From contig NC_133123.1 in NCBI RefSeq assembly GCF_033568475.1, positions 2,046,001 to 2,110,000 on the forward strand: a stretch of 64,000 nt of DNA, read 5' to 3'. Below the pieces are notes generated by a model. It was not told the origin of the DNA and made no database searches. It was given only the letters and a program-made list of their open reading frames with translations. This stretch comes from Henckelia pumila (lineage: Eukaryota; Streptophyta; Magnoliopsida; Lamiales; Gesneriaceae). Position numbers and translations under genes: made by a program. Below, in pieces: positions 16,571-56,379 of this stretch; the stretch's first letter is position 1; every line of letters starts with the position of its first letter.

Positions 16571-17593
16571 ATGGCCTTTTATACCGAAGAGGAGCAAACA
16601 GACGATTACCTTTTCAAGATTGTTTTGCTTGGTGATTCAGCTGTTGGTAAATCAAATTTGCTCTCTAGATTTGCCAGAGATGAGTTTTACCCAAATTCAA
16701 AATCTACCATAGGGGTAGAATTTCAGACTCAGAAGATGGTAATCAATGGGAAGGAAGTCAAGGCACAGATCTGGGACACAGCAGGCCAGGAGCGGTTTAG
16801 GGCTGTTACTTCTGCATATTATAGAGGTGCAGTTGGGGCACTTCTTGTCTACGACATCAGCCGACACCAGACTTTTGAAAGCGTTGGAAGGTGGCTTAAT
16901 GAACTTCACAGTAAGAAATGTGACTTGTCCATGTTTCTTTTCTCTCTTGTTCACATTTTATAGCCCTTAAAAGATACTCTATTGAAACTCATCTCTCTGC
17001 TTCAGATCAGGAACATCTACTATGAAATGAATTATGAATTCTGCATAAGATGGTGTTGTTTGCCTGTTTTCTGCATTACTTTTCATTGCCATATAGCTGC
17101 TGTAAGAGTCGACTGGCTAGCCGTGACTTATATTTATTCGTGTCTGTTAAAGAGAACTGGCGTGCAAAACAATTTGTCAAGATTGCAGCATGTTATACTC
17201 TTGAGAAAGTCCTCAAAAACGTAGTTTCATGTTTTTTTCTTTTAAACAGCGCATTCGGACATGAATGTAGTTACAATACTGGTGGGCAACAAATCTGATC
17301 TTAAAGAAGGGCGTGAGGTGAAGACTGCTGAAGGGAAATCACTGGCCGAGTCTCAGGGTCTGTTCTTCATAGAAACTTCAGCTCTGGATTCATCCAATGT
17401 TGCTGCTGCCTTTCAGACAGTTGTGAAAGAGATTTACGATATCTTAAGTAGAAAAGCCATTCAATCTCAAGAACTCAAACATAAAGAAACTGGGAGGATT
17501 CCAGATGGGCAAACTGTTGTTTTAGAGGCCGATGATATTGATGGTGGTAAAATGGATGGACAAAGTCAGAAAGGTTGGTGCTGTTCATCATGA
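16571..17593 (+). CDS. RABA5: RABA5-type Rab small GTPase
   Basis: Two coding exons, 16571-16910 and 17250-17593 (GTAAGA donor, AAACAG acceptor), encode 227 residues, the normal length. The GTPase motifs are complete: GDSAVGKS (P-loop), TIGVEF (switch I), WDTAGQE (switch II), NKSD and ETSAL. The C-terminus GWCCSS gives the double-cysteine geranylgeranylation signal. The N-terminus MAFYTEEE and overall sequence resemble Arabidopsis RABA5a, from memory of the family. RAB-A (Rab11-like) GTPases act in trans-Golgi/recycling endosome to plasma membrane traffic. The codon next to the intron is split (A|CG). The gene appears functional. Confidence 0.95.
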
Positions 17594-18482: not shown

Positions 18483-18760
18483 ATGCTAACGATTTCCAGA
18501 GTGAAACCACTTCTCTCTGTCTACAAGCCTCCCGCTGCGGCCGCCATTTCTCGTGGCAAGGTTGAATCTTTGCGATTCCCTTGTTTTCTCCCTGTAATTA
18601 CTCCTCTTCCAAGTATAAAACCTGCAATCTGCGTGCAAAGCCGAGGCTTATGCACCGACGTAGGGGCCACTGGTGAGATTCACGTGATTGTTGGACCTAT
18701 GTTCGCGGGGAAAACCACGACTCTTCTTAAAAGAATCAAGTCTGAAAGCTTCAATGGCAG
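18483..18760 (+). CDS. Thymidine kinase exon 1 (organelle-targeted TK1-like), remaining exons not adjacent
   Basis: It starts at ATG 18483 with a basic, Ser/Pro/Ala-rich leader of about 60 residues that looks like a plastid or mitochondrial transit peptide, then [22 protein letters not shown], the type II thymidine kinase P-loop. The exon ends ESFNGR at a GTTGGT donor (phase 2), where plant TK exon 1 normally ends. The next TK exon (nucleotide-binding lysine region) is not found; a PPR coding exon follows instead, and the downstream TK exons lie decayed at 20600-21143. The exon itself is open. It may serve as the first exon of a chimeric TK-PPR transcript (see findings). Confidence 0.8.
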
Positions 18761-18949
18761 GTTGGTTGAATTTTGTTTTCTTTTGTTTTTGTTAGTTGCA
18801 TTTTAAGTTGATTGAGGTTTAGTTGTTATAGAATTGAAGTGCTCTAACTCTGTTAGTCTTTTCTTTACTGTATTTGTGTATCATGTGCGCTGTGTCAGCT
18901 AGTAAAATTCCATGGCTGAACGAGATTTTCACAGTTGAGATGTTCCCAG

Positions 18950-20261
18950 ATTTCAGGCCGCGGACGCCGGAAAGAATTATTACCATTTGGATAAAACATT
19001 AAAAGGTCTCTGTTTCACGGGGAGAGTTAAAGAGGCTGTTCGGTTATTGTGCTGCTCAGGAGTGCAAGTGCACTCTGAAACCTATTGTCTTCTGCTGCAA
19101 GAATGCATATCCAGGAAAGAATATAGAGAGGGAAGAAGGATTCATTGGCAGATGGTTGCTGTTGGGTTTGTTCCTGATGAATATCTAAATATCAAACTTT
19201 TGATTCTATATGCGAAAGCAGGAGACCTGGATACCGCCCACATTCTTTTTGACTCCTCCTCATGCTTTAATTTAGTTTCATGGAATGCAATGATTTCAGG
19301 ATATGTGCAGAAGGGACAGGATGAGGTGGGTTTGAGTTTTTATAACAGTATGAGACTATGTGGTTTGATACCGGACCAGTATACATTTGCATCAGTCTTT
19401 AGGGCCTGTTCCTCCTTGGCCATTCTGGAACAGGGAAAGCAAGCCCATGGTTTGTTGACTAAGAGCCGGTTTAGTAAAAATGTTGTCGTTTGCACTTCAC
19501 TTATGGATATGTATTTCAAATGCAGTAGCTCATACGATGCGTCTCTTGTTTTCGACAAGTGTTTGGAAAGAAATGTCATAACCTGGACCGCCTTGATTTC
19601 TGGGTATGGTTTTAACGGAAGAGTGGTTGACGTGTTGGGTTCTTTTCATCAGATGATAAATGAAGGATTCAGACCAAACGAAATCACCTTTCTTGCAGTA
19701 CTTTCCGCTTGTAGCCATGGGGGTTTGGTGAATGAAGGGAGGGAATATTTTTCTTCAATGATAAGGGATTATGGTGTTAAGCCACGAGGAAGACATTATG
19801 CTGCCATTGTTGATCTTTTAGGGCGTGGTGGTAGGTTGGAAGAGGCTTATGCATTTGTCCAAATGTCACCTTTTAAGAAGCACCCAGCAGTTTGGGGTGC
19901 TTTGCTTGGTGCATGTAAAATTCATGGAAATGTGGAAATGGTAAAGCTTGCTGCAAAGAAATTTTTTGAGTTAGAACCAGAAAATGCTGGGAAGTATATA
20001 GTATTATGTAATGCCTACGCAACTTTTGGTTTGTGGGATAATGTTGCAGAGGTCAGGAGCATGATGAAGGGGTGTGGAATTAAAAAGGAACCTGGCTATA
20101 GCATGGTCGAGGTGCAAATGGAGGCTCATTTCTTCTTTATGGGCCATAATACTCACAAACAGACTAAGCAAATTTGTGGATTGATTGAAGATCTGACTTG
20201 TATCTTGAAAGATAATTGTGATGTTCGTGATTTCAGTATTGAACTGCAGTACCATGACTAA
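18950..20261 (+). CDS. PLS-class PPR protein with E/E+ domain (At4g16470-like), no start codon of its own
   Basis: An open reading frame of about 437 codons begins at a splice acceptor (TTCCCAG at 18949 or ATTTCAG at 18956), not at an ATG. The apparent start at 18987 is a TTG; the first in-frame ATG is about 55 codons further in. The repeats run in order: L-type near the start, SWNAMISGYVQKG (P), YTFASVFRACSSL (L), CTSLMDMYFKC (S), TWTALISGYGFNG (P), TFLAVLSACSHGG (L2), YAAIVDLLGRGGRLEEA (S2), then E motif VWGALLGACKIHGN and E+ motif ending in GYSMVEVQ. There is no DYW domain. Such proteins are organelle RNA-editing specificity factors. The sequence resembles Arabidopsis At4g16470. No frameshift or stop appears in the frame. 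Its 5' end is the open question: the thymidine kinase exon 190 bp upstream could supply a start and a transit peptide. Confidence 0.85.
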
Positions 20262-20599
20262 ATAGTTGGTGAATGTCCGTGGCATGCCGTTCAATAGGAA
20301 TGTCCTTTTAAGTGTCATTGAATTTCTAGATTACACAATCAGTTTTGGCAGTAATCCTTGTGCTCGTCAGTGAAAGGGGATGGAAAAATCTGGTGACCAT
20401 GTCAGCTTTGGGTAATAAAAAATTAATTTACATATGATTACACCTTGGTTTGCTGTCTGATGAGAAGGGAATAATTTTGGCCCCTTCGAAAAGTAGGACA
20501 CCAAGCATGACTTAACATTCTTTGAACCTTAAAGAAGCAAGTGTTCCCATGATATATGGTACGATTTGGTTTAATAACTTTACGTTTACACAATAACAG

Positions 20600-21143
20600 C
20601 TAGAGGTGATTAGTATTGATGAAGCTTAGTTTTTTGAAAACCTATATGACTTCTGCATCAAAGCTGCTAACAGTGGTGGGAAGAAAGACAAGTAGATTCT
20701 GGATTAGATGACAACATTTTGAGGTAAAAATATAACAAAATAGCCTGTTGTGGAATCATATTTCCATTTCTTGTTGGTATTACGTTTGAATTTGACAAAT
20801 AGTTATGAATCGTAGTAGCCGTTATAAGGAATAGCATTTTATGTTCTCCATATTTTATGTTCAATCCCTTCATTTATGTGATTTGATGCAAGTTTTTGCA
20901 CATCTAGGTTTGGCAGAGGGGCTTTGGAGTATTTCTTGATAGATTTCACTCTGCTGTTTCTGTAAAGAAGTTACCTGCTTGATACAATGTATCAAGTAAG
21001 CATGCTATCTTTACTTTCGAGGAAGTCAGATGAGACTAAGACAGTACTTGTTGCTGGTGCAGAACCAAACCAACCATTGTGCCAATTATGCAAGTGGAGA
21101 AGTGATTAAAGAGGCTGTAAGGGATAGGTTGTCTAACCAGTGA
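20600..21143 (+). pseudogene. Thymidine kinase 3' exons, decayed (copy 1)
   Basis: The exon at 20600-20723 (acceptor ATAACAG, donor GGTAAAA) encodes LEVISIDEA-stop-FFENLYDFC, the TK Walker B region with the Gln codon turned into TAG. A one-base shift then leads to GLDDNILR, which matches the TK segment GLDGDYLR. The exon at 20917-21143 encodes a segment like RSFGSVLD...SVTKL, a stop, then RKSDETKTVLVAGAE and, after a shift, ASGEVIKEAVRDRLSNQ and TGA. The zinc-site MPVCRQHY-like stretch is deleted or garbled. Together with 18483-18760 these are remnants of one TK gene, with the PPR exon lying between them. Confidence 0.75.
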
Positions 21144-21735
21144 ATTTGAATATGTGATTACAGAATAGGATGTCATTTTTTCCAGTTACATGGGATATTT
21201 TTGTGAATCAAGGCTGTATTTTATGTGGATGCATTATGATTTTGCTAAATCTAGGTGCCGTTTATGAAGGCTTCAATTTTATCCAGAAGTTGAAAACTTT
21301 GTGGGGATCCACTTGTGTTCAGGTCTAATCCTCGGAGGGAATGTTTTCCCCAGTTTGATCGTTATTACTTTATAGTTTATATAACATTGTCATAGCCCCA
21401 TAAATCTTTCTTTATTTGTTTTTCAGTATCCGAACGGTTGTCCTTTAAGAAAATAATCATACACTTTAAGAATGGGTAATTTCAATTTTGATTGCATGAA
21501 GAAACAAAAAGCATAGGATCACAGACACAATAGTAAAATATAACAATCACATAATAAATGTGAAAACACAAAAATCATGACAAGTATTCATAGCCCAGAT
21601 CATTATATAGTAATCAGGTCTATCACAACATATATGAACCTTAAAAACTCCTCACATAAAACTAAACAAACTCCTTACCGAACAAATAAAACTTCCAAAC
21701 AGCACATATAGGTCGTTTACATCAGTTTGCACTGG

Positions 21736-24286
21736 CTAAAACTCTGGCCAGCCTTGATGTTGGATCTCAAAACCACTCAAGATGAGATCAAGGATCTTTC
21801 TTCCACCTGCATTGCCTTGAAGCCGCGGGAAATGAGGTGCGAGAGCTTCAACAAGATGCAAATAAAGTGTCTCGATTTGGTATTTCTGCAAGAAAGAGAG
21901 TAAATAGTCAATCTTGAAGAAGATTATACAAGTATTGACATTTTAGCAACTAAACTATGTAGATAACAATAAACCAAGCATTACCTTGAGTTGCTTCAAG
22001 GCGACCTGAATTATGTAATTACCATACGGATGCTGAGCAAGTTGATAAGAAGCTGAGGGGGTTTGTAAAATTTCTGTGACAACTACACATGTCCCAAGGC
22101 GTGAAGACTCGACACATCTCTCGACCACATTACTCGCCCCTTTCACTTGGGATAGCTGTACGAAGTGCCCTTGGAGGCGACGCAGGATATATAGTGCCAC
22201 AAATTTATCACCAAGTAGCATTGCATGTTGCACAACATAGTTCCTGGAAAAAGGAAAAACAAGAAGAATCAGCAATCACTAGCCATGCATATTTAATGTC
22301 ATAAACTCAAAAGCAAGCCATGCATATTTAATGTCATAAACTCAAAAGCAGGATTATTCAGATTGTAATTTGTTGATTACCCGAATCGGTCATTTGATAG
22401 GAACACTGCTTTACTTGCAATTATTCCAAGAAGTGCAAGTTTTTGTTGGCCAAAAATAGTGCTGATGAACTCGTTCAACGATCTGCACCCTACTTCGTGT
22501 ATAGCCAGGTCGCAAACAATAGCCATCACCCTTTCATAAAGAACCTGAGATCTCCACCAGAACATGAAATCAATTAATTTACATGAAATCAATTAATTTA
22601 CATTAATCTCGTGAATGAGATCAATATTTCTATATTAAACCATCCAAATTTTCTTTAACAGCTGTAATTACCTCATTTGGTCTGCTTCCAAATTGATTTA
22701 GGCACTGTGTTATCACTGTCCTCGCCGTATGATCTGTCATCAGATCATATAATCTTAATGACAACAGCTCCGTTAGAGTGTAAGCGTGAATTGTTTTCTT
22801 GATCCTCTTGATAAGTTTATTGATTGAATTTGATCTCCCAAAACAGGAAGCCATAAGGAAAAACAGAGAGAGACAAGAAAATTATTCATTCTAATTTTTT
22901 TTTTTTTTTAAAAAAAAACAAAGGGTCTAGCTAGCTTGCTCACCCCTCTTTAATGAATGCTGCATCTATGAAGCGGGCAGCGTTCTGGAGCAAGAGTTCT
23001 TGGACGAGGGATTCCAGCTGCTCATCTCCGTATTCCTCAAGAAGTTGGTCGAAATGAGAAACTCTGTCGTTCGTAATCATCATCTCAAGAAAAGAGCCTC
23101 GGAGTTGAGAAAACGATATCCGTGGCGCCTTGCCGGCCTCTGACTCTGATTATAGTTTCCCGAAGTTTCTTGCAAAACATAGTTCCTGGACTGTGTTGTC
23201 ATTGTATGGTGTTCATAAGCTGTGGGAAGTCCATGGATTTGGATCCCTCCGATTCGAATCGTCGGGAGCTCAAGAATTGGATCTTTAGAGGAGAGTGGAT
23301 TATCATGAATATCATCAGTGTTTCTTGTTTCAGCATGACCAATATTTGGTTGTGATTCGTGATCAAGAGAATCCATCTCCACTTTTCTGGTTGGACGTCC
23401 AATTACTCCGACATTCTTTGAAATATTATTCCCCCTGCAGAAACAACGTTCAAGAAAATAGCTAATTTGAAACGCTCCAAATTAAGAAGAAATATCTCGT
23501 TTAAAAACAATTTTATAGATTTTTTTTTTAAAAAAACACTTTAATAAAAACGTTTTATAAGTATTAATCCAAAAGAGGGCCGCCTAAATCTTTAATAACT
23601 CGTGTACATGCATAAGAATAATTACCATAATTTGGTTCATTGATTTTGATTCCATTGGTCGGTCGATATCTAGTTTGCTCCAATCTAATTGCCCCAAAAA
23701 CTGGGACGTTGTTGAATGGGATCAATGAATGTCCTCTGCGACAATCTGCAGACGATATCGATGCAGCTTCATCATTAAAATAAGTTTTCCTCACACGAAA
23801 TGAATTCTCGCAAATTACTTCTTTCCCTATAAATTAATAACAATTCAACATTATATCTTATGAAACTCAAAAACAAAAACACACGGGATTATGAAAAATT
23901 AAAAGTATTTTTATAAGTTGCTTGAATTATTTACCTTTACTTCCACTCCCGTGAGATCCCCCTATATTTCCATAACCAACCGAGTTTGCACCTGTAAACT
24001 CCAGAATTCGCCGCCGCGTGGTCGTCGGAGGAGCGGTGGAGTCATTCAAGAAACTTCGAGTCTGATCATCAGAGGTTGTTTGAGTCGTTAACGATCTAGT
24101 ACTCACGACGTTCTTGGAGCTTTCACCGTCCGCAGCGGAGCCGTGAATCGAAGGGTGAATATGGTCATTACTCAACACGAGAGATTCGAAGTTTGCTACA
24201 AACTCATCGCCAACTTGTAGGCTCGGACCCATCTCGGGTTCTACTGAATCTGAGCGCTTGGATGTTCTTGAAACTGAGTCTTCCAT
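21736..24286 (-). pseudogene. Pumilio/PUF RNA-binding protein gene, copy 1 (nearly complete, two frameshifts)
   Basis: Seven exons on the minus strand: 24286-23935, 23826-23626, 23434-22944, 22834-22672, 22544-22381, 22243-21985 and 21885-21736. The 5' three exons give a low-complexity N-terminus (MEDSVSRTSKRSD...). The rest gives about six PUF repeats, such as SINKLIKRIKKTIHAYTLTEL, HEVGCRSLNE, GNYVVQHAMLLGD, ASNVVERCVE and YGNYIIQVALK. PUF proteins bind 3' UTRs and repress mRNAs. Compared with copy 3, one G is missing at the start of exon 3 and one base at about 23114, which shifts the frame. The acceptor of exon 4 reads GGGAG where copy 3 has GGCAG. These lesions make it a probable pseudogene, although much of the PUF domain remains open. 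Confidence 0.8.
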
Positions 24287-26119: not shown

Positions 26120-29100
26120 TCAAGATGGAGAATGTATATTATGAACACCCATCTTGGACAACAACATACGAAACTGATTTGGCAGTAAAGATTTGGTGAA
26201 TAAATCTGCAAGTTGCAAGTGTGAAGGAATATGCAAAGCTTTGATGACACCCTGCTGAATCTTTTCTCGCACAACATGACAATCAATCTCGATATGCTTC
26301 GTGCGTTCATGGAATACTGGATTAGATGCAATATAGATAGCTGCTTGACTATCACAAAATAGAACAACAGGATTAGGATGAGGCACACGCAAATCTTTAA
26401 GCAATGACAGCAGCCAAGTGATTTCACATGTTGCACTAGCCATAGATCGATACTCTGCTTCTGCAGAAGAGCGTGACACCGTTTGTTGTTTCTTAGACCT
26501 CCATGATATCAAGGACTCACCAATAAGCACACAAAATCCAGTGGTAGAACGACGAGTGTCAGGACAAGTTGCCCAATCAGAGTCTGAAAAGAAAGTAAGC
26601 TTGAGAAGGGACTTAGAGCTATAAAACAAACCCTGACCAATGGTGCCTTTAACATATTTAAGTACTGAATAAGCAGCTTGAAGATGCGTGTCTCTAGGGT
26701 TAGCAACGAATTGACTCAACCTATTCACAGAATAAGCTAAGTCCGGTCTCGTGATGGTTAGATACAACAGCTTTCCAATAAGTTTTCTATACATGATTGG
26801 ATCAGTCAACAATTCTCCTTCTTCACAATTAATCTTCAGATTAGTATCCATAGGAGTGCTGCGTGATTTACAACCAGTAAGTCCTGCTTCAGATAACAAT
26901 TGAAGAGCATAATGCCTTTGACAAATAGATATGCCATGAGATGATCTTGCCACTTCTATGCCTAGAAAATACCTCAAATCTCCCAAATCTTTCAGTTTGA
27001 ATTTACTGTCTAGAAAAACTTTGAGATCCTCTGCTTCTTGTTTATTGTTGGTAGCAATAACAATGTCATCAACATACACTAGCAATGCCAAAAAGATATC
27101 CCCACGGGTCCTAACAAAGAGAGAATTATCTGCATGACTTTGTGTAAAACCAATATTCATTAGAGTGGAAGAGAATTTGGCAAACCACTGCCTTGAGGCT
27201 TGTTTAAGCCCATAAATCGACTTATGCAATTTACACACTGGATTATTGGGTAAAGACTCCCCCTTTCGTTGATAACCCGGAGGCAAAGACATGTAAACTT
27301 CCTCAGAAAGATCACCATGCAAAAATGCATTGTTAACATCCAATTGAGTGAGAAACCAACCTTTAATAGAGGCAAGAGCCAACAAGGTTCTAACTGTAAC
27401 CAATTTGGCTACAGGAGAGAAAGTTTCCAGAAAATCGATTCCTTCTTATTGCGTATAACCTTTGGCAACCAAGCGAGCTTTATATCGCTCCAAAGAACCA
27501 TCAGCTTTAAGTTTAATCTTGTAAACCCATTTGCAACCCACAACACTTTTCTGAGAGGGTAAAGAAACAATGGTCCAGGTACCATTGTTTTCAAGAGCTT
27601 GAAGTTCATCAGTCATGACTTGACACCATGCTGGTTGAGCAGCAGCTTGAGCGAATGTTTGTGGTTCAGAAATGGTAGAGACATTGTGAACAAAGGAACG
27701 GTATGAAGTAGAAAGTTTCTGATCACTAAGTACTAGGTGCAGGGGATGAACAGTAGAAAAGGATGAGGGAAAAGAAGAAGTGGCATAGCAATGAAAATCA
27801 CGCAAATGAGTACGTTTGATTGTAACTCGATGAGAACGTGTCAGATAAGGCTATTTGTCTGGACAAGTTTGCACAATATCCTTAGAAGATGACACGAAAG
27901 TAGATTGGTGTGGAATCACAGGATTAAAAAATGAGACTGGATCTTGATCAAGAGAACTTTCTTTAAAAGGAAATGAAGTCTCATGAAATATCACATCACG
28001 CGAGATATAAACTTCATTTGTTTCTAGATTCAACAATTTATAAGCTTTATAACCTGGTGGATAACCTAGAATACAGATCTTATGGCTCGAGGAGAAAACT
28101 TATGGCGATGAGAAGGAAGAGTGGAACCATAACATAAACACCCAAAAACTCTTAAATGATCATAAGAAGGATCTTTACCAAAAAGAAGTTGGAAAGGACT
28201 TTTATTGGACAAAAGTGATGAAGGTGTTCTGTTAATGAGATAAACAAAAGTTAGTATGCAATCACTCCAATATCCTAGTGGAATATGAGATTGAAACACC
28301 AAGGCTCGAGCTACATTCAAGATATGTTGATGTTTTCGTTCGACCACAGAATTTTGTTGTGGCCTCTCAACACATGAATGATAAGAAAGAATCCCTTCAT
28401 CATTGAAAAATTAAGCTCAGGAGCATTATCAGATCTGACAGATTTGATCTTTTGTCCAAACTGAGTATGCACCATCTTACAAAAATTAGGAATGATATTC
28501 ACTGCAGCAGACTTGGATTTAAGGAGATAAACCCATGTGAACGTGTATGATCATCAACAATTGTCAAAAAATACTTATAACCTTCAATACTTAAAGTTTG
28601 AAACGGTCCCCAAATATCAATATGAATCAATTGAAAAGGAAGATCACTAAGAAAATTATTTGAAACAAAAGGTAAACGCTTTTGTTTGGACAAATGACAA
28701 GTATTACAAACCAGGGAATCATCATGTTTTATTGATGTAAGACTCAAATCATTATTTACAATGGCAACTTTTGAAAAAGAAGGATGACCCAACCGATAGT
28801 GCCAAAGTTCAGAAGTACTAAAGGAAACATTACAGATTGCTTGAGGAAAGTCTTGAATTTGAGTGTTCAGAATGTATAGGTTTCCAACTCTTCTACCCAT
28901 CCCAATCATCTTGTCCTTGGTAAGATCCTGGATGTGACAGAAATCATGAGAGAAAGAAACTAAGCAAGACAACTGTGCAGTTAAGGAGCTTATAGACAGT
29001 AAGTTAAAATGGAATTGAGGAACAAACAAGACATTGTCTAAAACCAACTTAGACGTTACTGGAACTGAACCAACATGTGTGGCTGAAACTATAGAGTTAT

Positions 29101-29184
29101 TTGGTAAAGTGACTCGAGAAATTTTTGATTGATAAGACGCAAAGGAATTCAGAGAACAACAAATATGATGTGTTGCCCCTGTAT
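26120..29184 (-). pseudogene. Copia pol: protease (part), integrase, reverse transcriptase, RNase H; frameshifted
   Basis: The protease active site DTGATHH lies at about 29180-29160. It is followed by the GAG-pre-integrase region (LWHYRLGHPSF, HX4H/CX2C with CNTCHLSKQKR), and the integrase core begins at IDIWGPF. The frame then breaks near 28530, 28390, 28070 and 27850. The reverse transcriptase starts in [18 protein letters not shown] and meets a stop at 27446-27448 where a Gln is expected. It then runs open from 27403 to 26120, with [20 protein letters not shown], the RNase H motifs SDSDWA and [10 protein letters not shown], and a final TKSLLPNQF. The RT/RNase H part is intact over 427 codons. 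Confidence 0.93.
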
Positions 29185-29189
29185 CAAGT

Positions 29190-32034
29190 TGTAACGCCCA
29201 GAAATTCGTCACGTAAATTCGCATGCATAACTAGGAGATTTAATAATTTTAAAATAATGTGAAAATGTGTTAAATTATTTTTATGAATTATTATGTGAAT
29301 TATGTGATTTATTGACATGTTTTAAATATTGTTTCGACATTTAAATCGGTATGATATGATTTATGAATTTATTTGAGAAAGTTTATTTTATGATCGCGTA
29401 GGCGAGTCCGTGGATGGACGAGATGTTTGTTTTCACCCAAAATATTTTATGAGATTTTTTAGGAGCCTTAAAATATTATTTTAAGGTATAATTTGATGAA
29501 AATTATGGTATTTATATATACGTATATTTATAGGTACGTTTTTACCCAAAATAAGTCATTTTAATGACTTTTATTAATCTTTAAAAATCCCATTAATTAT
29601 AATTTCGGGATTTAAGGTTTAAAAATCAGATTTATATTGTATTTAAGAGTTTTAAAATTCTATATGTTTAGAGTATTTATTTAAATATTTAACCTAGAAT
29701 ACCCAAAATATTATCCTAAGATCTTCTATCCTAATCCTCCTACCCATTACCCTACGTAAATTCACCCCTAAGCCGCCTCCAACAGAAACCTTCAGCCTCC
29801 ATTCTCACTCACCACACACTTTCACGTAAGTTTGAAGAAAAGTTTGGAGATTCGACGTCTCGATCGTCCCGGTGCGCCGATACGTGTTATTATCAATTTT
29901 TGGATCAAGCAATCGTCGAGGCATGTTTGATTTCCATTCTTGAACACCATTTAGATTATATTAAACTATTTTTAAGATGAATGATGAGATTATTGCATGT
30001 GTTTCGGATTTGAATGACATTCTTCATAGTTCATCCTTGTTTTTCACGTATTTATGCATATGTCTTGGTTTCTGCATGTTTATGGCCATGATTTGTTCGG
30101 GCCTGCTGCACCAGGGTTCGGGGTCCTAAATAGGGTCCTTAGAGTCTGTTTAATGGGGTGGTTCGTTCATGGAAAAGGCTGGAACCCAAGCTGGGACGTG
30201 TCCCTTCCTCGGATCGGCAGATTTCCCGTAGCGGCTTGATTATGGGTTGGGGGCTTCGGTTGGTTCAGGCAGGGTCTTGGCTTGAGCCAAGCCTGGTCCT
30301 AAAGTTGCGCCTGGACCTTGGGGTGGTCCAGGTGTCGGAGTTCCGGTCGGCGGTGGCCGGAGCTGGGCAGAAGAAAGGGGAAAAGGGGCTGTGCGTGAGA
30401 GTGCATGCGAGAGGGAGGAGAGGAACACACAGTTGAGTTTTGGGTTTCTTGAGGATTCTAGGATCGGCCATTAGAAAGAACTAGCATGGGTTTGAACTAG
30501 AGATGGGTTCAAGTCCTTGGGGGGGGGGGTCTGATTAAGGGTCTTAGATGGTTAGATGAGGGATGGTTTGAGGGCTAAGGCAGATCACGGGTTCTATGGG
30601 CCTTGGAACGTGAGTTTTGGGATTTTTGTGCATGGGTTCTTGTGGTTCCTGCATGGGCGGCGTGCATGGGTGCAGGCTGGTCCATGAAGGGTCGGTTAGG
30701 GTCCTAAGGTCTTGGTTGAGGACTGGTTTCATTGGGCTAAGGCTAGGACCGATTGGATTCTTGGGTTTTAGCATATAAGGTTTGAAAATTTTGCACAGGA
30801 AATAACAGAAGCTGTATGGACGGTTTTTGGGTTCTAATTGGTATGGTTTGGGTTGTTTTGAGTTTAAGTCTAGTGGTCGGCAGCTCGAGCAAGTCCTTGG
30901 AAAAATAAAAGTCCGTAAATATATATTTAACTCATGCATGCATTTTTATTAGATATATAAGTATGATTTTTAAGAAAATAAATTAGATATATATTTACGG
31001 GAAAATTTTCATGAAATAAAGAAATAATGAGAATTTTTAAGTTTATGCATTATGTAAGAATTTTTATGATAAGTTCAAATGCATGTTAAAAAAATATATT
31101 TTTTTTTTATGGAAGTTGAAGTGCAGGTGGAAAGTGGTGTGGTTGGAGGCCGGGATACCTGGGCCCGGTGACCTTTCTAATAATGTTTATGTTATGATGA
31201 GCTTATGGATCCAGCTGAGAGGGCTGGTAAAGTGGCAGCACAGAGGTGGAAACCCCACCGCCACGTACGTTGGTTTATAGATTGATCAATCGCTCAGTAT
31301 GATGCCACCGACATGGATACGACCTGATGAGAACTAAGAAATCATGATATGTTATTTTTACGAAAATTATAAAGTATGATGAATTATGTTATAACATGAT
31401 GATTTAGCAGTACAATTATTTTATTTCATGTTTATATGCATATAATTTTAAGATCATGCACGTATAATTATTATTCATGTATTTTATATGATGTGTGCTT
31501 GTGTGTGGTTTCATTTTGTTATGTAAGAATAGAACGTGCTGAGCCTCTAGGCTCACTAGATTTAAATGGTGCAGGTGAGCAAAATGTCAATAAGGATAAT
31601 GTGTTCCCGACTGACGGCGAGGGCGTATGAGTATCCAGGCGGCTAGAACCCGTGACCATTGCTCTAAGATGAATTTTATGTTGAGACTAGAACATTTATT
31701 TCCGCATATGTTTTATTATTATAGATTTTCAGTATCTGCATGAATTTTAGATTTAAGTATTTATTTTCTAAGTTTTCCTGAATTTTGTGAAAGAAATATT
31801 ATTTAGGGATTTTATTATGGAATATTTATAAATGATTATTTAGTAATTAATTTTAAGTATTTAATTGAATGTGTTGTATTTATTGTGTTTATGTATTTTA
31901 AATTAAGTAAAGTTATTTTTAAGTATGATATATATATGTATGGGCATATATATATATTTATATTCATTATTTTATTATCAGAGAGTTTTGTAAAAAAAAA
32001 AAAAAAAATTCAGTAGGAGTTTTAGGATGTTTCA
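29190..32034. mobile_element. Gypsy-type solo LTR, 2845 bp, inserted in the Copia protease, TSD CAAGT
   Basis: It starts TGTAACGCCC and ends GGATGTTTCA (a mirror-type terminus), flanked by exact CAAGT at 29185-29189 and 32035-32039. The flanking Copia codons run straight on across the duplication, which confirms the borders. Long LTRs that start TGTAACGCCC and carry a GTGAGC...GAGGGCGTATGAG-like 3' region are typical of the Ty3/gypsy chromovirus Tekay/Del group (from family knowledge). No internal domain remains, so it is a product of LTR-LTR recombination. It includes a G10 run (about 30520) and a poly-A run (31992-32008). Confidence 0.9.
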
Positions 32035-49979: not shown

Positions 49980-50782
49980 GAAATTTTCTTAACTATTTAT
50001 TTTAAATTGAATTTTAAAATTATTTAGTAACATATTCTGTTAACAAAATAAGATGCATTAAATTCTTATAAAAAAAATTTCGCAAATTTATGATTTATTC
50101 GAGATAATGCCACTGCCTAGAATTTTCGACGCGCGCGCGAGTAATTTGGCGAATTTGTCACAGAGAGTTGATGGCTACAATATCTTGAATATACTCTAAC
50201 AACCCATTGAAGCCAAAGGATTGTTCTAGAGAACTGTAAAAAGGACATGGAGGAATTAGGTTCGTGCACAAGGATCTAGAACATTAAGGACACGACTTGA
50301 ATATTATAAGAACTTGTGGAATGATCTAGAATGTTGTAGAAAAAGTTAGGTCTCGAAGTTTTCAAGGCATTGTAACAAGATGTGGAAACTTTGGAGAAAA
50401 TCCAGACTATTATACAACACTCATATAAATTTATGAAAATCTAGAACAATCTTTGATGTAGAGTAGTGCAAAATACATTTGAAGGATTTAGATGTTAGGA
50501 AACATGTATAAATAGAGGTGTAGGAACTCATTCGTAAATCAACAAATTAAAGAACTTAACCAATTTATTTTTCACTCAACTAACAATTAGACTTTATCTC
50601 TCTACAAATTCTCTTAGCAAGTCATTTATATATTTAGGCACTCAAAATCACTTGACTGCAGGTGAACTTGTTAGAACAGCTAATTTTGTACAATTTATAA
50701 TGGAATGCCAATAAAATCCAGGTGTACATCGTTACTCATAATCTATTAAAAAGAATTAATTTTTGACCAACAACAATCATAC
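49980..50782. other. Intergenic, possibly an old LTR with promoter
   Basis: 50150-50700 has a TATAAATAGAGG box (about 50509-50520) preceded by repeated TCTAGAA(C/T)-type words (GATCTAGAACATT, GATCTAGAATGTT, AATCTAGAACAAT). This looks like a retroelement promoter region, but no termini or duplication could be fixed. No coding similarity. Confidence 0.35.
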
Positions 50783-52262
50783 AACACTTGAAGAAAGTGT
50801 AATTTCAATTTTAATTGCATGAAGAAACAAAAAGCGTAGCATCACAAACACAATAGTAAAATATAACAATCACCTAATAAATGTGAAAAGGCACAAAAAT
50901 AATGACAAGTATCCATAGCCCATATCATTAAAAAAAAACTAAACAGTATCGAATACATTGATCAGCCAAAATCTTCAATAGTAACCGGGTCTATCACAGC
51001 ATACATGAACCTTAAAAACTCCTCACATGAACCTAAACAAACTCCTCATCGGAACAAATAAAACTAACACACAACAAAATTAGGTCGTTTACATCAGTTT
51101 GCATTGACTAAACTCTGGTCAGCCTTGATCTTGGATCTTAAAACCACTCGTTATGAGATCAAGGATCTTTCTTCCACCTACATTGCATTGAAGCCGCCGG
51201 AAATGAGGCTCGAGAGCTTCCACAAGATGCAAATAAAGGGTCTCGATTTGGTGTTTCTGCAAGAAGGAGAGTTCGTAGTGGAGAAGATTACCCAAGTATT
51301 GAAATTTAAGCAACTATGTAGATAACAATAAACCAAGCATTACCTTGAGATGCTTCAAGGTGACCTGAATTATGTAATTACCATACGGATGCTGAGCAAG
51401 TCGATAAGGAGCTGACGGGGTTTGTAAAACTTCTGTGGCAACTACATATGTCCCAAGGCGTGAAGACTGATCAACACATCTCTCGACCACATTCCTCGCC
51501 CCCTTTCTCTTGGGATAGCTGTATGAAGTGCCCACTGAGGCGACACAGGATATATGGTTTCATGACTTTATCACGCATGTTGCACACCATAGTTCTTGGG
51601 AAAAGGAAAAAAAATAGTTCTTGGGAAAAGGAAAAAAAAAAAAAAAAAGAAGAAGAATCAGCAATCACTAGCCATGCATATTAATGTTATAAATTCAAAA
51701 GTAGGATTATTCAGATTTTAATTTGTTAATTAACCGAATCGGTCATTTGATAGGAACACCGTGTGACTTACAATTATTCTGAGAAGTTCAAGTTTTTGTT
51801 TGCCAGAAATAGTGTTGATGCACTCGTTCAACGATCTGCACCCTATTTCGTGTATACCCAGGCCGCAAACAATATCAATCACCGTTTCATAAAGAACCTG
51901 AGATGTCCACCAGAACATGAAATCAATTAATTTCATTAATCTCGTGAATGGGATCAATATTTCTATATTCAACCATCCAAATTTTCTTTAGTAGCTGTAA
52001 TTACCTCATTTGGTATGCTTCAAACTGATTTAGGCACAGTGTTATCACTGGCTTGGCCGTATCATCTGTCATCAGATCATATAATCTTAATGAAAATAGC
52101 TCCCTTAAAGTGTAAGCATGATTTGTTTTCTTGATCCTCTTGATCAGTTTATTGATTGAAGTTGATATACCAAAACAGGAAGCCATAAGTATGATATAAT
52201 CCCACGAAAATTAGTTCCATTTTTTTCCCAAAAACAGAGATAGGCAAGAAAAATATTCATTC
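50783..52262. repeat. Segmental duplication block, truncated copy 2 (Pumilio 3' half)
   Basis: It aligns with 21470-22895. The right border is a poly-T tract (about 52260-52275) where it is fused to the start of the next block (TK 3' part), so the 5' half of this Pumilio copy is missing. Confidence 0.8.
51108..52190 (-). pseudogene. Pumilio/PUF gene, copy 2 (truncated 3' half)
   Basis: It retains the exons equivalent to 4-7 of copy 1: SINKLIKRIKKTNHAYTL (about 52164), GIHEIGCRSLNECI, ARNVVERCVD and YGNYIIQVTLK, then IETLYLHLVEALEPHF and a TAG at 51108. The exon equivalent to 6 has an insertion (a duplicated TTCTTGGGAAAAGG stretch at 51590-51640) and frame disruption. The exon 4 acceptor has become GTATATC. 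The 5' exons are absent. Non-functional. Confidence 0.75.
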
Positions 52263-52514
52263 TAATTTTTTTTAAAATCTGAGGATCATGTCTGCTTTAG
52301 GTAATAAAAAGTTAATTTACATATGATTACACCTTGATTTGCTATCTGATGAGAAGGGAATGATTTTGTCCCCTCGAAAAGTAGGACACAAAGCATGACT
52401 TAAAATTCTTTGAACCTACTTCTCAAAAAAAAATTCTTTGAACCTTAAAGAAGCAAGTGTTCCCATGATATATGGTACTATTTGGTTTAATAACTTCATG
52501 TTTACATAATAACA

Positions 52515-53012
52515 GCTAGAGGTTATTAGTATTGACAAAGCTCAGTTTTTTGAAGACCTATATAACATCTACATCAAAGCTGCTAACATTGGTGGGAAGA
52601 AAGACTAGTAGATTCTGGATTAGATGACAACATTTTGAGGTAAAAATATAACAAAATAGCCAGTTGAGGAATCATATTTCCAGCCGGTATAAGAAATAGC
52701 CTTTTGTTCTCCATATTTTATGTTCAATCCCTTCATAATGTGATTTGATGCAAGTTTTTGCTCATCCAGCTTTGGCAGAGGGAGCTTTGGAGTATTTCTT
52801 CATAGATTTCACTCTGCTGTTTGTTTATGTAACGAAGTTACCTGCTTGATATAATGTATCAAGTAAGCCGGCTATCTTGACTTAAGAAGAAGTCAGAGGA
52901 GACTAACACAATACTTGTTGCTGGTGCAGAACCAAACCAACTATTGTGCCACTGCCAATTATGCAAGTTGAGAAGTGATTAATAAGGTTGTAAAGGATAT
53001 GTTGTATAACCA
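52515..53012 (+). pseudogene. Thymidine kinase 3' exons, decayed (copy 2)
   Basis: The exon at 52515-52639 encodes LEVISIDKAQFFEDLY: the Gln lost in copy 1 is kept here, but the Walker B Glu is Lys. The exon at about 52779-53012 keeps ETNTILVAGAE and a changed EVINKVVKDMLYNQ. A 6-bp insertion relative to copy 1 (ACTGCC) lies at the former zinc-site region. No TK exon 1 or PPR exon precedes this copy. Confidence 0.7.
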
Positions 53013-53200
53013 AAGTGATTACAAAGTAGGATGCCATTTTTTCCATTACATGGGATATTTATGTGAATTAAGGCTGTATTATGTGGGATGGATAATGATT
53101 TTGCTAAATCTAGGTGTCGTTTATGAAGGCTTCAATTTTATCCAGAAGTTGAAAACTAAACTGTCGGGATCCACTTGTGTTCAGGTTTAATCCTCTTAGG

Positions 53201-53686
53201 TAGAGCTGTCAAACGTGCCAACCCATGGCGGGCCAAAAATCCTCAACCCAACCCAACCCAAGGTGGGTTGCGGGTTAGGCGGGCCGGCCCGCGGGTTAGC
53301 TCACGACAAATAAAAATAAATAAATAAAATTATAATTAATTATAAATATCATTTCATAAATAAATATTAATAAAAATATATTAATAAAAATTTAAATTAT
53401 TGATTTCATGTGTGTAAATTTTATATAAAGTAATTAATACAAAAAAAATTCATAACTTTTATTAAAAAAATACATATATCATAATAAAAATAAAAATAAA
53501 TTAATAATCCTCCAGGCCCGCGGGCCAACCCGCGCGGGTCGCGGGCCTTGGCGGGTTGGCCCATCTAGGCCCACTTTTTGTTGGGTTGAAAAAATATCAA
53601 CCCAACCCACTTAAATTATGTGGCGGACCGGGCCGACCCGGCGGACCGGGCCGACCCGGCGGGCCTAACCCAAATTGACGGCTCTA
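53201..53686. mobile_element. hAT MITE, 486 bp, TSD CTCTTAGG
   Basis: The ends are TAGAGCTGTCAA and TTGACGGCTCTA, with an exact 8-bp duplication CTCTTAGG at 53193-53200 and 53687-53694. The sub-terminal regions are very GC-rich (GCGGGCC, CCAACCC repeats, GGACCGGGCCGACCCGGC twice), and the core is AT-rich. It is absent from the paralogous position near 21340. Confidence 0.95.
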
Positions 53687-54040
53687 CTCTTAGGATATGT
53701 TTTCCCAGATTGTTATAATTGATATAACATTGTCATAGCCCCATAAATCTTTCTTTATTTGTTTTTCAGTATCCTAACGGTTATGCTTTGAAGAAAGGGT
53801 GATTTCAATTTTGATTGCATGAAGAAAAAAAAAAGCGTAGCATCACAGACACAATAGTAAAATATAACAATCACCTAATAAATGTGAAAAAACACAAAAA
53901 TCATGACAAGTATTCATAGCCCAAATCATAAAAAAACTAAACAGTACGGAATACATCGATCAACCAAAAGTTTCGATAGTAATCAGTCTATCACAACATA
54001 TATACATGAACATTAAAAAGTTTACATCAGTTTGCGTTGA

Positions 54041-56379
54041 CTAAAACTCTGGCCAGCCTTGATGTTGGATCTCAAAACCACTCGAGATGAGATCAAGAAT
54101 CTTTTTTCCACCAGCATTGCATTGAAGCCGCAAGAAATGAGGCGCGAGAGCTTTGACAAGATGCAAATAAAGGGACTGGATTTGGTGTTTCTGCAAGAAG
54201 GAGGGCACATAGTCAATTTTGGAGAAGATATTATACAAGTATTGGCATTTTAGCAACTATGTAGATAACAATAAACCAAGCATTACCCTGAGATGCTTCA
54301 AGGCGACCTGAATTATGTAATTACCATACGGATGTCGAGCAAGTCCATAAGGAGCTGACGGGCTTTGTAAAATTTTTGTGACAACTACACATGTCCCAAG
54401 GCGTGAAGACTCGACACATCTCTCGACCACATTACTTGCCCCTTTCTCTTGGGATAGCTGTATGAAGTGCCCACTGAGGCGACGCAAGATATATGGTGTC
54501 ACGACTTTATCACCAAGTAGCATTGCATGTTGCACAATATAGTTCCTAGGAAAATAAAAAATAAGAAGAATCAACAATCACTAGCCATGCATATTTAATG
54601 TTATAAACACAAAAGTAGGATTATTCAGATTGTAATTTGTTAATTACCCGAATCGGTCATTTGATAGGAACAATGCGTGACTTGCAATTATTCCTAGAAG
54701 TGCAAGTTTTTGTTGGCCAAAAATAGTGCTGATGCACTCGTTCAACGATCTGCATCCTACTTGGTGTATAACCAAGTCGCAAGCATTAGCCATCACCGTT
54801 TGATAAAGAACCTGAAATCTCCACCAAAACATGAAATCAATTAATTTACATTAATATCATGAATGGGATCAATATTTAAATTTCTATATTCAACCATCCA
54901 AATTTTTTTTTGCAGATGTAATTACCTCATTTGGTCTGCTTTCAAATTGATTTAGGCACTGTGTTATCACTGTCTTGGCCGTATGATCTGTCATCAGATC
55001 ATATAATCTTAATGACAACAGCTCCGTTAAAGTGTAAGCGTGAATTGTTTTCTTGATCCTCTTGATCAGTTTATTGATTGAATTTGATCTGCCAAAACAG
55101 GAAGCCATATGGAAAAACAGAGAGAGACAAGAAAATTATTCATTCTAATTTTTTTTTTCTTTAAAAAAAAACAAAAGGTCTAAGAATAGCTTGCTCACCC
55201 CTCTTTAATGAATGCTGCATCTATGAAGCGGGCAGCGTTCTGGAGCAAGAGTTCTTGGACGAGGGATTCCAGCTGCTCATCTCCGCATTCCTCAAGAAGT
55301 TGGTCGAAATGAGAAACTCTGTCGTTCGTAATCATCATCTCAAGAAAAGAGCCTCGGAGTTGAGAAAACGATATCCGTGGACGCCTTGTCGGCCTCTGAC
55401 TCTGATTATAGTTTCCCGAAGTTTCTTGCAAAACATAGTTCCTAGACTGTGTTGTCATTGTATGGTGTTCATAAGCTGTGGGAAGTCCATGGATTTGGAT
55501 CCCTCCGATTCGAATCGTCGGGAGCTCGAGAATTGGATCTTTAGAGGAGAGTGGATTATCATGAATATCATCAGTGTTCCTTGTTTCAGTATGACCAATA
55601 TTTGGTTATGATTCGTGATCAAGAGAATCCATCTCCACTTTTCTGGTTGGACGTCCAATTACTCCGACATTCGTTGAAATATTATTCCCCCCTGCAGAAA
55701 CAACGTTCAAGAAAATAGCTAATTTGAAACGCTCCAAATTAAGAAGAAATATCTCGTCTTCGACTACTATTTTAAAAACAATTTTATAGATTTTTTTTTA
55801 AAAAAAACACTTTAATAAAAACGTTTTATAAGTATTAATCCAAAAGAGGGCCGCCTAAATCTTTAATAACTCGTGTACATGCATAAGAATAATTGCCATA
55901 ATTTGGTTCATTGATTTTGATTCCATTGGTCGGTCGATTCTCGCAAATTACAACATTCCCTATAAATAACAATTCAACAATATATCTTATGAACTCAAAA
56001 ACAAAAACACACGGGATTATAAAAAATCAAAGGCATCGTATTTTTAGTTGCTTGAATTATTTGCCTTTACTTCCACTCGCGTCATGATGAGATCCCCCTA
56101 TATTTCCATAAGTACCAACCGAGTTTGCACCTATAAACTTCGTGATGGAGTCATTCAAGAAACTTCGAGTCTGATCATCAGAGGTTGTTTGAGTCGTTAA
56201 CGATCTACTCACGACGCTCTTGGAGCTTTCACCATCCGTGGCGTACGTATTTCGTCGTTACTCAACACGAGAGATTCGAAATTTGCAACAAACTCATCTC
56301 CAACTTGTAGGCTCGGACCCATCTCGGGTTCTACTACTGAATCTGAACGATGGGATGCTTTTGAAACCGAGTTTTCCAT
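54041..56379 (-). pseudogene. Pumilio/PUF gene, copy 3 (nearly complete, different lesions)
   Basis: It has the same exon plan as copy 1, from ATG 56379 to TAG 54041. It keeps the GGCAG acceptor of exon 4 and the five-G start of exon 3 that copy 1 lost, and the uninterrupted SFSQLRGSFLEMMITNDRVS stretch before the PUF repeats (55195-55458 region). Its own lesions are a deletion in exon 1 that shifts the frame (near 56230), a deletion of about 120 bp in exon 2 (near 55937), and a TAA replacing CAA in exon 3 (about 55606). PUF repeats from exon 4 onward remain largely open. Confidence 0.8.

Follow-up and report, generated by a model that had tools for sequence, protein, structure and literature searches.

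Henckelia pumila carries a PPR gene that appears to begin with a thymidine kinase exon, the likely remnant of an ancient nested gene pair

The presence of a PPR exon with no usable start of its own downstream of an intact thymidine kinase (TK) exon raises the question of where such a gene begins and how the two parts came to be joined. The locus is found in Henckelia pumila, in a window (the whole stretch of DNA that was analysed, 64,000 nucleotides) that covers positions 2,046,001–2,110,000 of the chromosome-scale contig C4. The assembly comprises 884.7 Mb; the available text of its published description gives four pseudochromosomes and 885 Mb (PMC10627561).

The spliced frame and its product

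All the features described here lie on the forward strand unless otherwise stated. A Rab-type GTPase gene with a Ras domain (16571..17593), the marker that pairs this block with another on contig C3, is immediately upstream of TK exon 1 (18483..18760), which is followed by a 189-bp intron (18761..18949) and the PPR exon (18950..20261). The Pfam TK match, the splice frame, and the public protein P0001 point to exon 1 as the present first exon of the PPR gene. It starts with an ATG, encodes a leader and a P-loop segment (GPMFAGKT), and ends at a phase-2 donor (GGCAG/GTTGGT); the acceptor preceding 18950 reads ...TTCCCAG/ATTTCAG. The PPR exon has about 437 open codons with PLS-type repeats and an E motif, and its stop is at 20259–20261. 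Between this stop and the relics of TK described below, an AATAAA (20414..20419) is a possible poly(A) signal, judging by the motif.

The original prediction was of a chimeric gene in which TK exon 1, with its leader and P-loop, is spliced in frame to a PPR exon without a start codon. Both splice sites of the claimed intron are present, and the join of exon 1 (to 18760) with the PPR exon (from 18950) gives an open frame of 529 residues. The same donor with the acceptor at 18957 does not keep the frame, in agreement with what had been claimed for the alternative acceptor at 18956. Because the frame stays open in 5 of the 27 donor/acceptor pairs tried (4 of these 5 use other GT sites), an open frame alone is weak evidence. 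The 529-residue product is identical throughout to P0001, a record named 'PPR At4g16470' from Henckelia pumila that may have been predicted by computation alone, and is 72% identical to a Buddleja protein. Upstream, a stop closes the PPR frame just before 18939, and the first in-frame ATG is at 19152. We rejected a translation start at this ATG because it would drop six residues, encoded further upstream, that do not vary among 40 aligned orthologues; the exon has no usable start of its own. Overall, the identity with P0001, the recurring position of the junction (see below), and the Pfam TK matches in orthologues confirm, at the level of sequence, that the in-frame junction is above chance, and they suggest that exon 1 is spliced to the PPR exon in vivo.

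In the window, the Pfam TK match covers profile positions 1–24 of 176 and lies in exon 1, and the PPR and E-motif matches are in the second exon. Among the 40 aligned orthologues, PPR and E motif are found in 40 and TK in 29. The product has the PPR repeats, the E motif, and the high identity across the PPR part that characterise orthologues of the At4g16470 type (PLS class, with an E motif), from which it differs in that its first 93 residues come from TK. It does not have the complete domain of a TK enzyme (P-loop, IDEAQFF, and zinc-binding lid), the remainder of TK being decayed. In the AlphaFold model, residues 1–98 have a pLDDT below 50 and a helical solenoid begins only at residue 99, so the TK-derived segment looks unfolded in the PPR product. 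E-motif PPR proteins are generally organelle RNA-editing factors, and the product is probably an organellar factor of this type, with a presumed function in editing. The leader has 2 acidic residues among its 63. By analogy with maize TK1, whose N-terminus is described in the available text as necessary and sufficient for targeting and whose first 72 residues took GFP into chloroplasts (PMC7463494), the TK-derived leader would direct the PPR product to an organelle. An exon 1 with leader and P-loop is shared with the organelle-targeted plant enzymes AtTK1b and ZmTK1 as the accessible part of that report presents them, whereas the later exons of the window copy are dead and the catalytic core is absent from its product (PMC7463494).

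Orthologues across flowering plants

An identity and length cut applied to 304 proteins, taken from the matches listed in database searches, left 134 orthologues of the PPR part. Among the matches listed, TK exon 1 precedes PPR in 74 of the 134: 35 have exon 1 and PPR, 27 have exon 1, PPR, and a TK tail, 10 fall in a decayed P-loop class, and 2 (P0087 and P0301, the script class 'other start') are models that begin within exon 1. Inspected by eye, 2 of the 10 decayed P-loops have the variant GPMFSGKT (Juglans P0049, Tarenaya P0091), and 8 are altered or shortened (four Ipomoea, Cuscuta epithymum, Heracleum, Daucus, and Prosopis). The named species with exon 1 belong to what we take to be about 19 core-eudicot orders. 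The junction motif (R or S, F or L, Q) is at an equal distance from the P-loop in 59 of the 74 among the matches listed; in the other 15 it is at a different distance (4) or absent (11, joined elsewhere or altered). The original prediction spoke of a new gene, and this part of it does not survive. Since the join occurs in about 19 core-eudicot orders, as we count them, and in 74 of 134 orthologues among the matches listed, the gene is not new to H. pumila, and the derived part is the loss of the TK half. Comparison with relatives upheld the join, which recurs among the 134 orthologues listed, but not its being specific to Henckelia.

The P-loop segment is altered or shortened, with the frame open, in P0034, P0076, P0082, P0104, P0027, P0090, P0094, and P0099 (Cuscuta epithymum, Apiaceae, Prosopis, and Ipomoea). 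These probably represent separate losses of the TK half at the locus.

Without exon 1, 12 of the 134 orthologues among the matches listed read through the 3' end of the intron, with similar acceptor codons (mostly D-I-P-S-F-Q or close), and the remaining 48 begin elsewhere. Among the matches listed, TK exon 1 is missing from every one of the 13 named proteins of species outside the core eudicots (Nelumbo, Telopea, Protea, Macleaya, two Papaver, two Stephania, Ranunculus, Tetracentron, Magnolia, Tasmannia, and Phoenix). Instead they begin with a short native leader that is usually basic and frequently carries R-aromatic-F-H at about residue 8; the start of P0271 is similar. Nine named core-eudicot models also lack exon 1 (Quercus P0037, Cornus, Castanea P0102, Kalanchoe, Hevea, Rubroshorea, Malania, Malus P0276, and Vitis); the models may be poor, or the exon may truly have been lost. 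Of the others among the 48, most start at an internal methionine. In P0254 and in Malus P0276, the frame 5' of the acceptor reads HISP(L/V)RYSSFQ, resembling the native leader of the species outside the core eudicots; this stretch may be a surviving trace of the old PPR start. Database records such as P0003, P0008, P0010, and P0016 bear PPR, and several of them are named 'thymidine kinase', because the exon is shared or because the models were joined.

The PPR tree was made with 31 of 36 chosen proteins, as the start could not be placed in P0006, P0067, P0023, P0041, and P0247. It places Henckelia inside the Lamiales and does not by itself make the window copy a deep paralogue.

The fusion could be an artefact of gene prediction if predictors carry the PPR frame back to the closest start upstream while the true mRNA begins elsewhere. 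Many database models are indeed over-joined (the 27 of 134 listed orthologues that run from exon 1 through PPR into a TK tail), alternative splice pairs stay open as described above, and exon 1 is found in none of the 31 assembled-contig ('lgn') PPR orthologues among the matches listed, a result that may reflect low expression of PPR or contigs of genomic origin; the 'lgn' TK proteins P0125, P0127, and P0132 have exon 1 joined to exon 2. Yet an artefact does not account for an identical junction position in 59 of the 74 listed models with exon 1, nor for the lack of an in-frame ATG before 19152 with six invariant residues upstream of it. The orthologues from outside the core eudicots have their own leader at that very place, so some leader is to be expected there. 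Hence, we give this possibility little credence.

An exon shared by TK and PPR proteins

If the two genes used the same exon, TK and PPR proteins of one species would begin alike. Exon 1 is 99–100% identical over its whole length in 8 of the 21 TK/PPR pairs compared (Olea, Nicotiana, Camellia, Coffea, Cynara, Lactuca, Chenopodium, and Andrographis). The Citrus pair is identical over 55 residues, its PPR model starting late; four cross-species or partial pairs show 87–94% and Castilleja 81%. The exon differs or is missing in the other 7: Cinchona (54%), Ipomoea (43%), Daucus (34%), Genlisea (72% over 25 residues), Henckelia against Primulina (48%), and Tetracentron and Vitis, whose PPR models are without exon 1.

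In the joined database models, the TK tail comes after PPR. This order of parts, in 27 protein models among the matches listed, suggests that intron 1 of TK contains the PPR exon in these relatives, and models running on into TK exons are what such a position would lead one to expect. The window has the same layout: the guest exon occupies the host intron and continues the frame of host exon 1, and the host tail, here dead, follows downstream. The decay of TK, correctly predicted for the window, does not extend to many relatives, where TK appears live: 27 of the 74 listed models continue into TK exons, and 8 of the 21 pairs share the exon almost without change. Taken together, these comparisons suggest a pairing of great age that is widespread among flowering plants, and the shared exon is probably used by alternative splicing.

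The linkage of the two genes outside the core eudicots is suggested for some species only, because the records differ. The PPR and TK genes of Tetracentron carry consecutive tags; those of Macleaya, Telopea, and Protea are on contigs of equal length, the Protea tags (NE237_001673 and NE237_002640) being far apart; in Nelumbo, Ranunculus, and Phoenix, they are on contigs that differ in length (among the matches listed).

The dead TK tail and the surviving TK genes

Searches with tblastn, using intact TKs from Gesneriaceae and Paulownia, revealed relics of exon 3 (20597..20683, with an in-frame TAG within IDEAQFF) and exon 4 (20914..21140, with stops) downstream of the PPR exon, and found no TK exon 2 at the window locus. 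A second copy of the dead tail (52513..52949) is part of a local duplication that includes a Pumilio-type gene. Of the 890 bases aligned between the two tail copies, 77 differ (JC 0.092), and the lesions are shared; since stop codons after GGGAAGAAAGAC are common to both, the TK was probably dead before the local duplication. The duplication as a whole (50772–55757 against 20385–23500) has 82–88% identity with its pieces reordered, and covers the Pumilio-type gene region as well as the tail. Retroelement pieces, presumably of the Copia type, lie on the reverse strand at 26123–29230 (RVT_2, GAG-pre-integrase, and Pol beta-barrel), and related copies are near the C3 locus.

A search of the H. 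pumila genome, in which 10 of 10 candidates were scored, identified an intact TK on C3 (195,530,878–195,532,722) and another on C2. The C3 gene encodes 287 residues in four exons, with an intron 1 of 744 bp and a phase-2 donor as in the window. The C2 gene gives an open four-exon model of 235 residues that starts shortly before the P-loop, and because it has no long leader its product looks cytosolic. Each of these genes is equipped with a first exon of its own. These searches turned up no intact TK exon 2 that is paired with exon 1 of the window, a finding that would have told against the chimeric gene. We also rejected the use of the window exon by a live TK, as the local TK is dead and the C3 and C2 genes have their own first exons.

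A Rab gene lies immediately 5' of the intact TK on C3, in the same order and orientation as in the window. The Rab pair (226 codons) has a dS of 0.80 and a dN of 0.062. This dS is near the Ks of about 0.75 given for a Lamiales duplication, after which the available text of the genome report places none in H. pumila (PMC10627561); the synteny between C3 and C4 consists of these two genes only. A search for further synteny across 120 kb of C3 turned up retroelement genes, a remote PPR-like match at 27% identity, and some short matches, several of which occur in multiple copies. Duplication of the block in the Lamiales-wide genome duplication is the most likely origin of the two loci.

In the genome search with the PPR part, the only close match is on C4, the other PPR genes listed being at most 43% identical (82 of 811 candidates scored), and with a Salvia orthologue as query a single match reaches E<=1e-100, also on C4 (79 of 810 candidates scored). 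TK thus survives on C3 and PPR on C4: an intact TK, with no PPR found, on one, and the only close PPR match, without a live TK, on the other (for PPR, among the 79 of 810 candidates scored). This complementary loss at two paralogous loci fits the division of a gene pair with a shared exon. Intron 1 of the C3 gene has a 25/30-bp match to PPR, equalled in 2 of 2000 shuffles; a gapped alignment was borderline (10 of 300 shuffles as good), and a profile search for a PPR relic in this intron gave no significant result (390 of 896 shuffles did as well). That the match is a relic of PPR is doubtful.

Constraint on exon 1

Between the C3 and C4 copies, the P-loop part of exon 1 (29 codons) has a dN of 0.046 and a dS of 1.26, and the leader (63 codons, uncertain alignment) a dN of 0.41 and a dS of 0.99. 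The exon is 63 bases longer in one copy than in the other, a net difference of 21 codons; the alignment was made on protein, which forces gaps of whole codons by construction, so the gaps being in frame is no evidence of constraint. The pieces of the dead tail (50 codons) have a dN of 0.168 and a dS of 0.763, and the comparison of the P-loop part with the tail (3/67 against 18/118, rounded counts) gives a Fisher P of 0.020. We simulated neutral decay and obtained probabilities that exon 1 stays open of 0.15, 0.02, and 0.004 at 0.046, 0.092, and 0.145 changes per site. The first rate is the lowest that the tail copies allow, and the third a rough estimate from the dN and dS of the tail; if the death of TK is dated by the two tail copies alone, the chance of an open exon 1 is about 0.15. 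These results are suggestive, not decisive, of constraint on exon 1 in the window copy.

The whole locus might be dying, with the PPR frame open by chance; the dead TK tail and the much-changed leader would agree with this. Against it are the length of the open PPR frame, the 72% identity of the product to the Buddleja protein, and the lack of another close PPR copy in the genome (79 of 810 candidates scored), and we find this explanation very improbable. A recent chimera unique to H. pumila, in which a PPR copy entered the TK intron and killed TK, would explain why the join is intact and the TK downstream dead, but can practically be dismissed, since the exon 1/PPR join is found across what we count as about 19 orders, Henckelia falls inside the Lamiales in the PPR tree, and no second close PPR copy is found in the genome (79 of 810 candidates scored).

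An evolutionary scenario

We consider it likely that TK and PPR formed an ancient nested pair sharing exon 1, and that in Henckelia duplicate copies each kept one half. In this scenario, a PPR gene of the At4g16470 type came to sit in intron 1 of a gene for an organelle-targeted TK, and in the ancestor of core eudicots it would have lost its own start and been spliced, in phase 2, onto TK exon 1. A single promoter and exon would then have fed two proteins. Splicing of exon 1 to exon 2, with the PPR exon skipped as in relatives, would give TK; if exon 1 is instead joined to the PPR exon, which brings its own stop and poly(A) site (the AATAAA at 20414 may serve for polyadenylation after the PPR stop), the product would be a protein made of leader, P-loop, and PPR. 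In Henckelia, the block would have been duplicated, most likely in the genome duplication shared across the Lamiales; the C3 copy would have lost PPR and kept TK, and the window copy would have lost TK exons 2–4 and kept exon 1 and PPR. At the C4 locus, only the splice from exon 1 to the PPR exon would remain, so that exon 1 would serve there solely to provide the leader of an organellar PPR protein.

A bolder reading, to which we assign a small chance, is that core eudicots have one promoter and first exon for both organelle dTTP salvage (by TK) and an RNA-editing-type PPR protein, with the choice made by splicing and polyadenylation. The retained P-loop segment would be functional, e.g., in nucleotide binding, and Henckelia, the Convolvulaceae, and the Apiaceae would each represent an independent natural experiment in severing the link.

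Precedents and meaning

A literature search of titles and the starts of abstracts, partial in coverage and with most subscription journals outside it, found no paper on the pairing of TK and PPR. By analogy, the closest precedents are sdh2-rps14 of grasses and SKI7/HBS1 of fungi. According to the available text on the former (PMC1543663), alternative splicing joins the first exon of the host to rps14, which uses the targeting peptide of the host. As in TK/PPR, the host is a nuclear gene whose product belongs to an organelle, and a second gene lies within one of its introns (PMC1543663). The guest of sdh2 moved from the mitochondrion, whereas the guest of TK is a nuclear PPR gene whose relatives have their own leader; in addition, the host gives a P-loop segment, the clade is that of the core eudicots, and the pair has separated in Henckelia (compared with PMC1543663 as far as available). 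In the fungal cases of SKI7/HBS1 and PTC7, one alternatively spliced gene gave two proteins that were divided between two genes after genome duplication, which resembles the division between C3 and C4 in Henckelia (PMC3597508, available text). Those were isoforms of one gene, as opposed to a nested gene with a borrowed leader, and their split was tested by complementation, while that of Henckelia is deduced from sequence (PMC3597508, same text).

The arrangement would add to the few known cases in which residence in an intron of an unrelated gene gave a gene its organelle address; rps14 in sdh2 is the one that we found, and the TK/PPR clade is very large. It would also account for the many PPR proteins called 'thymidine kinase' in databases. 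The Henckelia pair may illustrate how the sharing of an exon is undone, with each copy keeping one half after duplication, and the comparison of lineages with and without the TK half may offer a handle on the role of a P-loop segment freed from catalysis.
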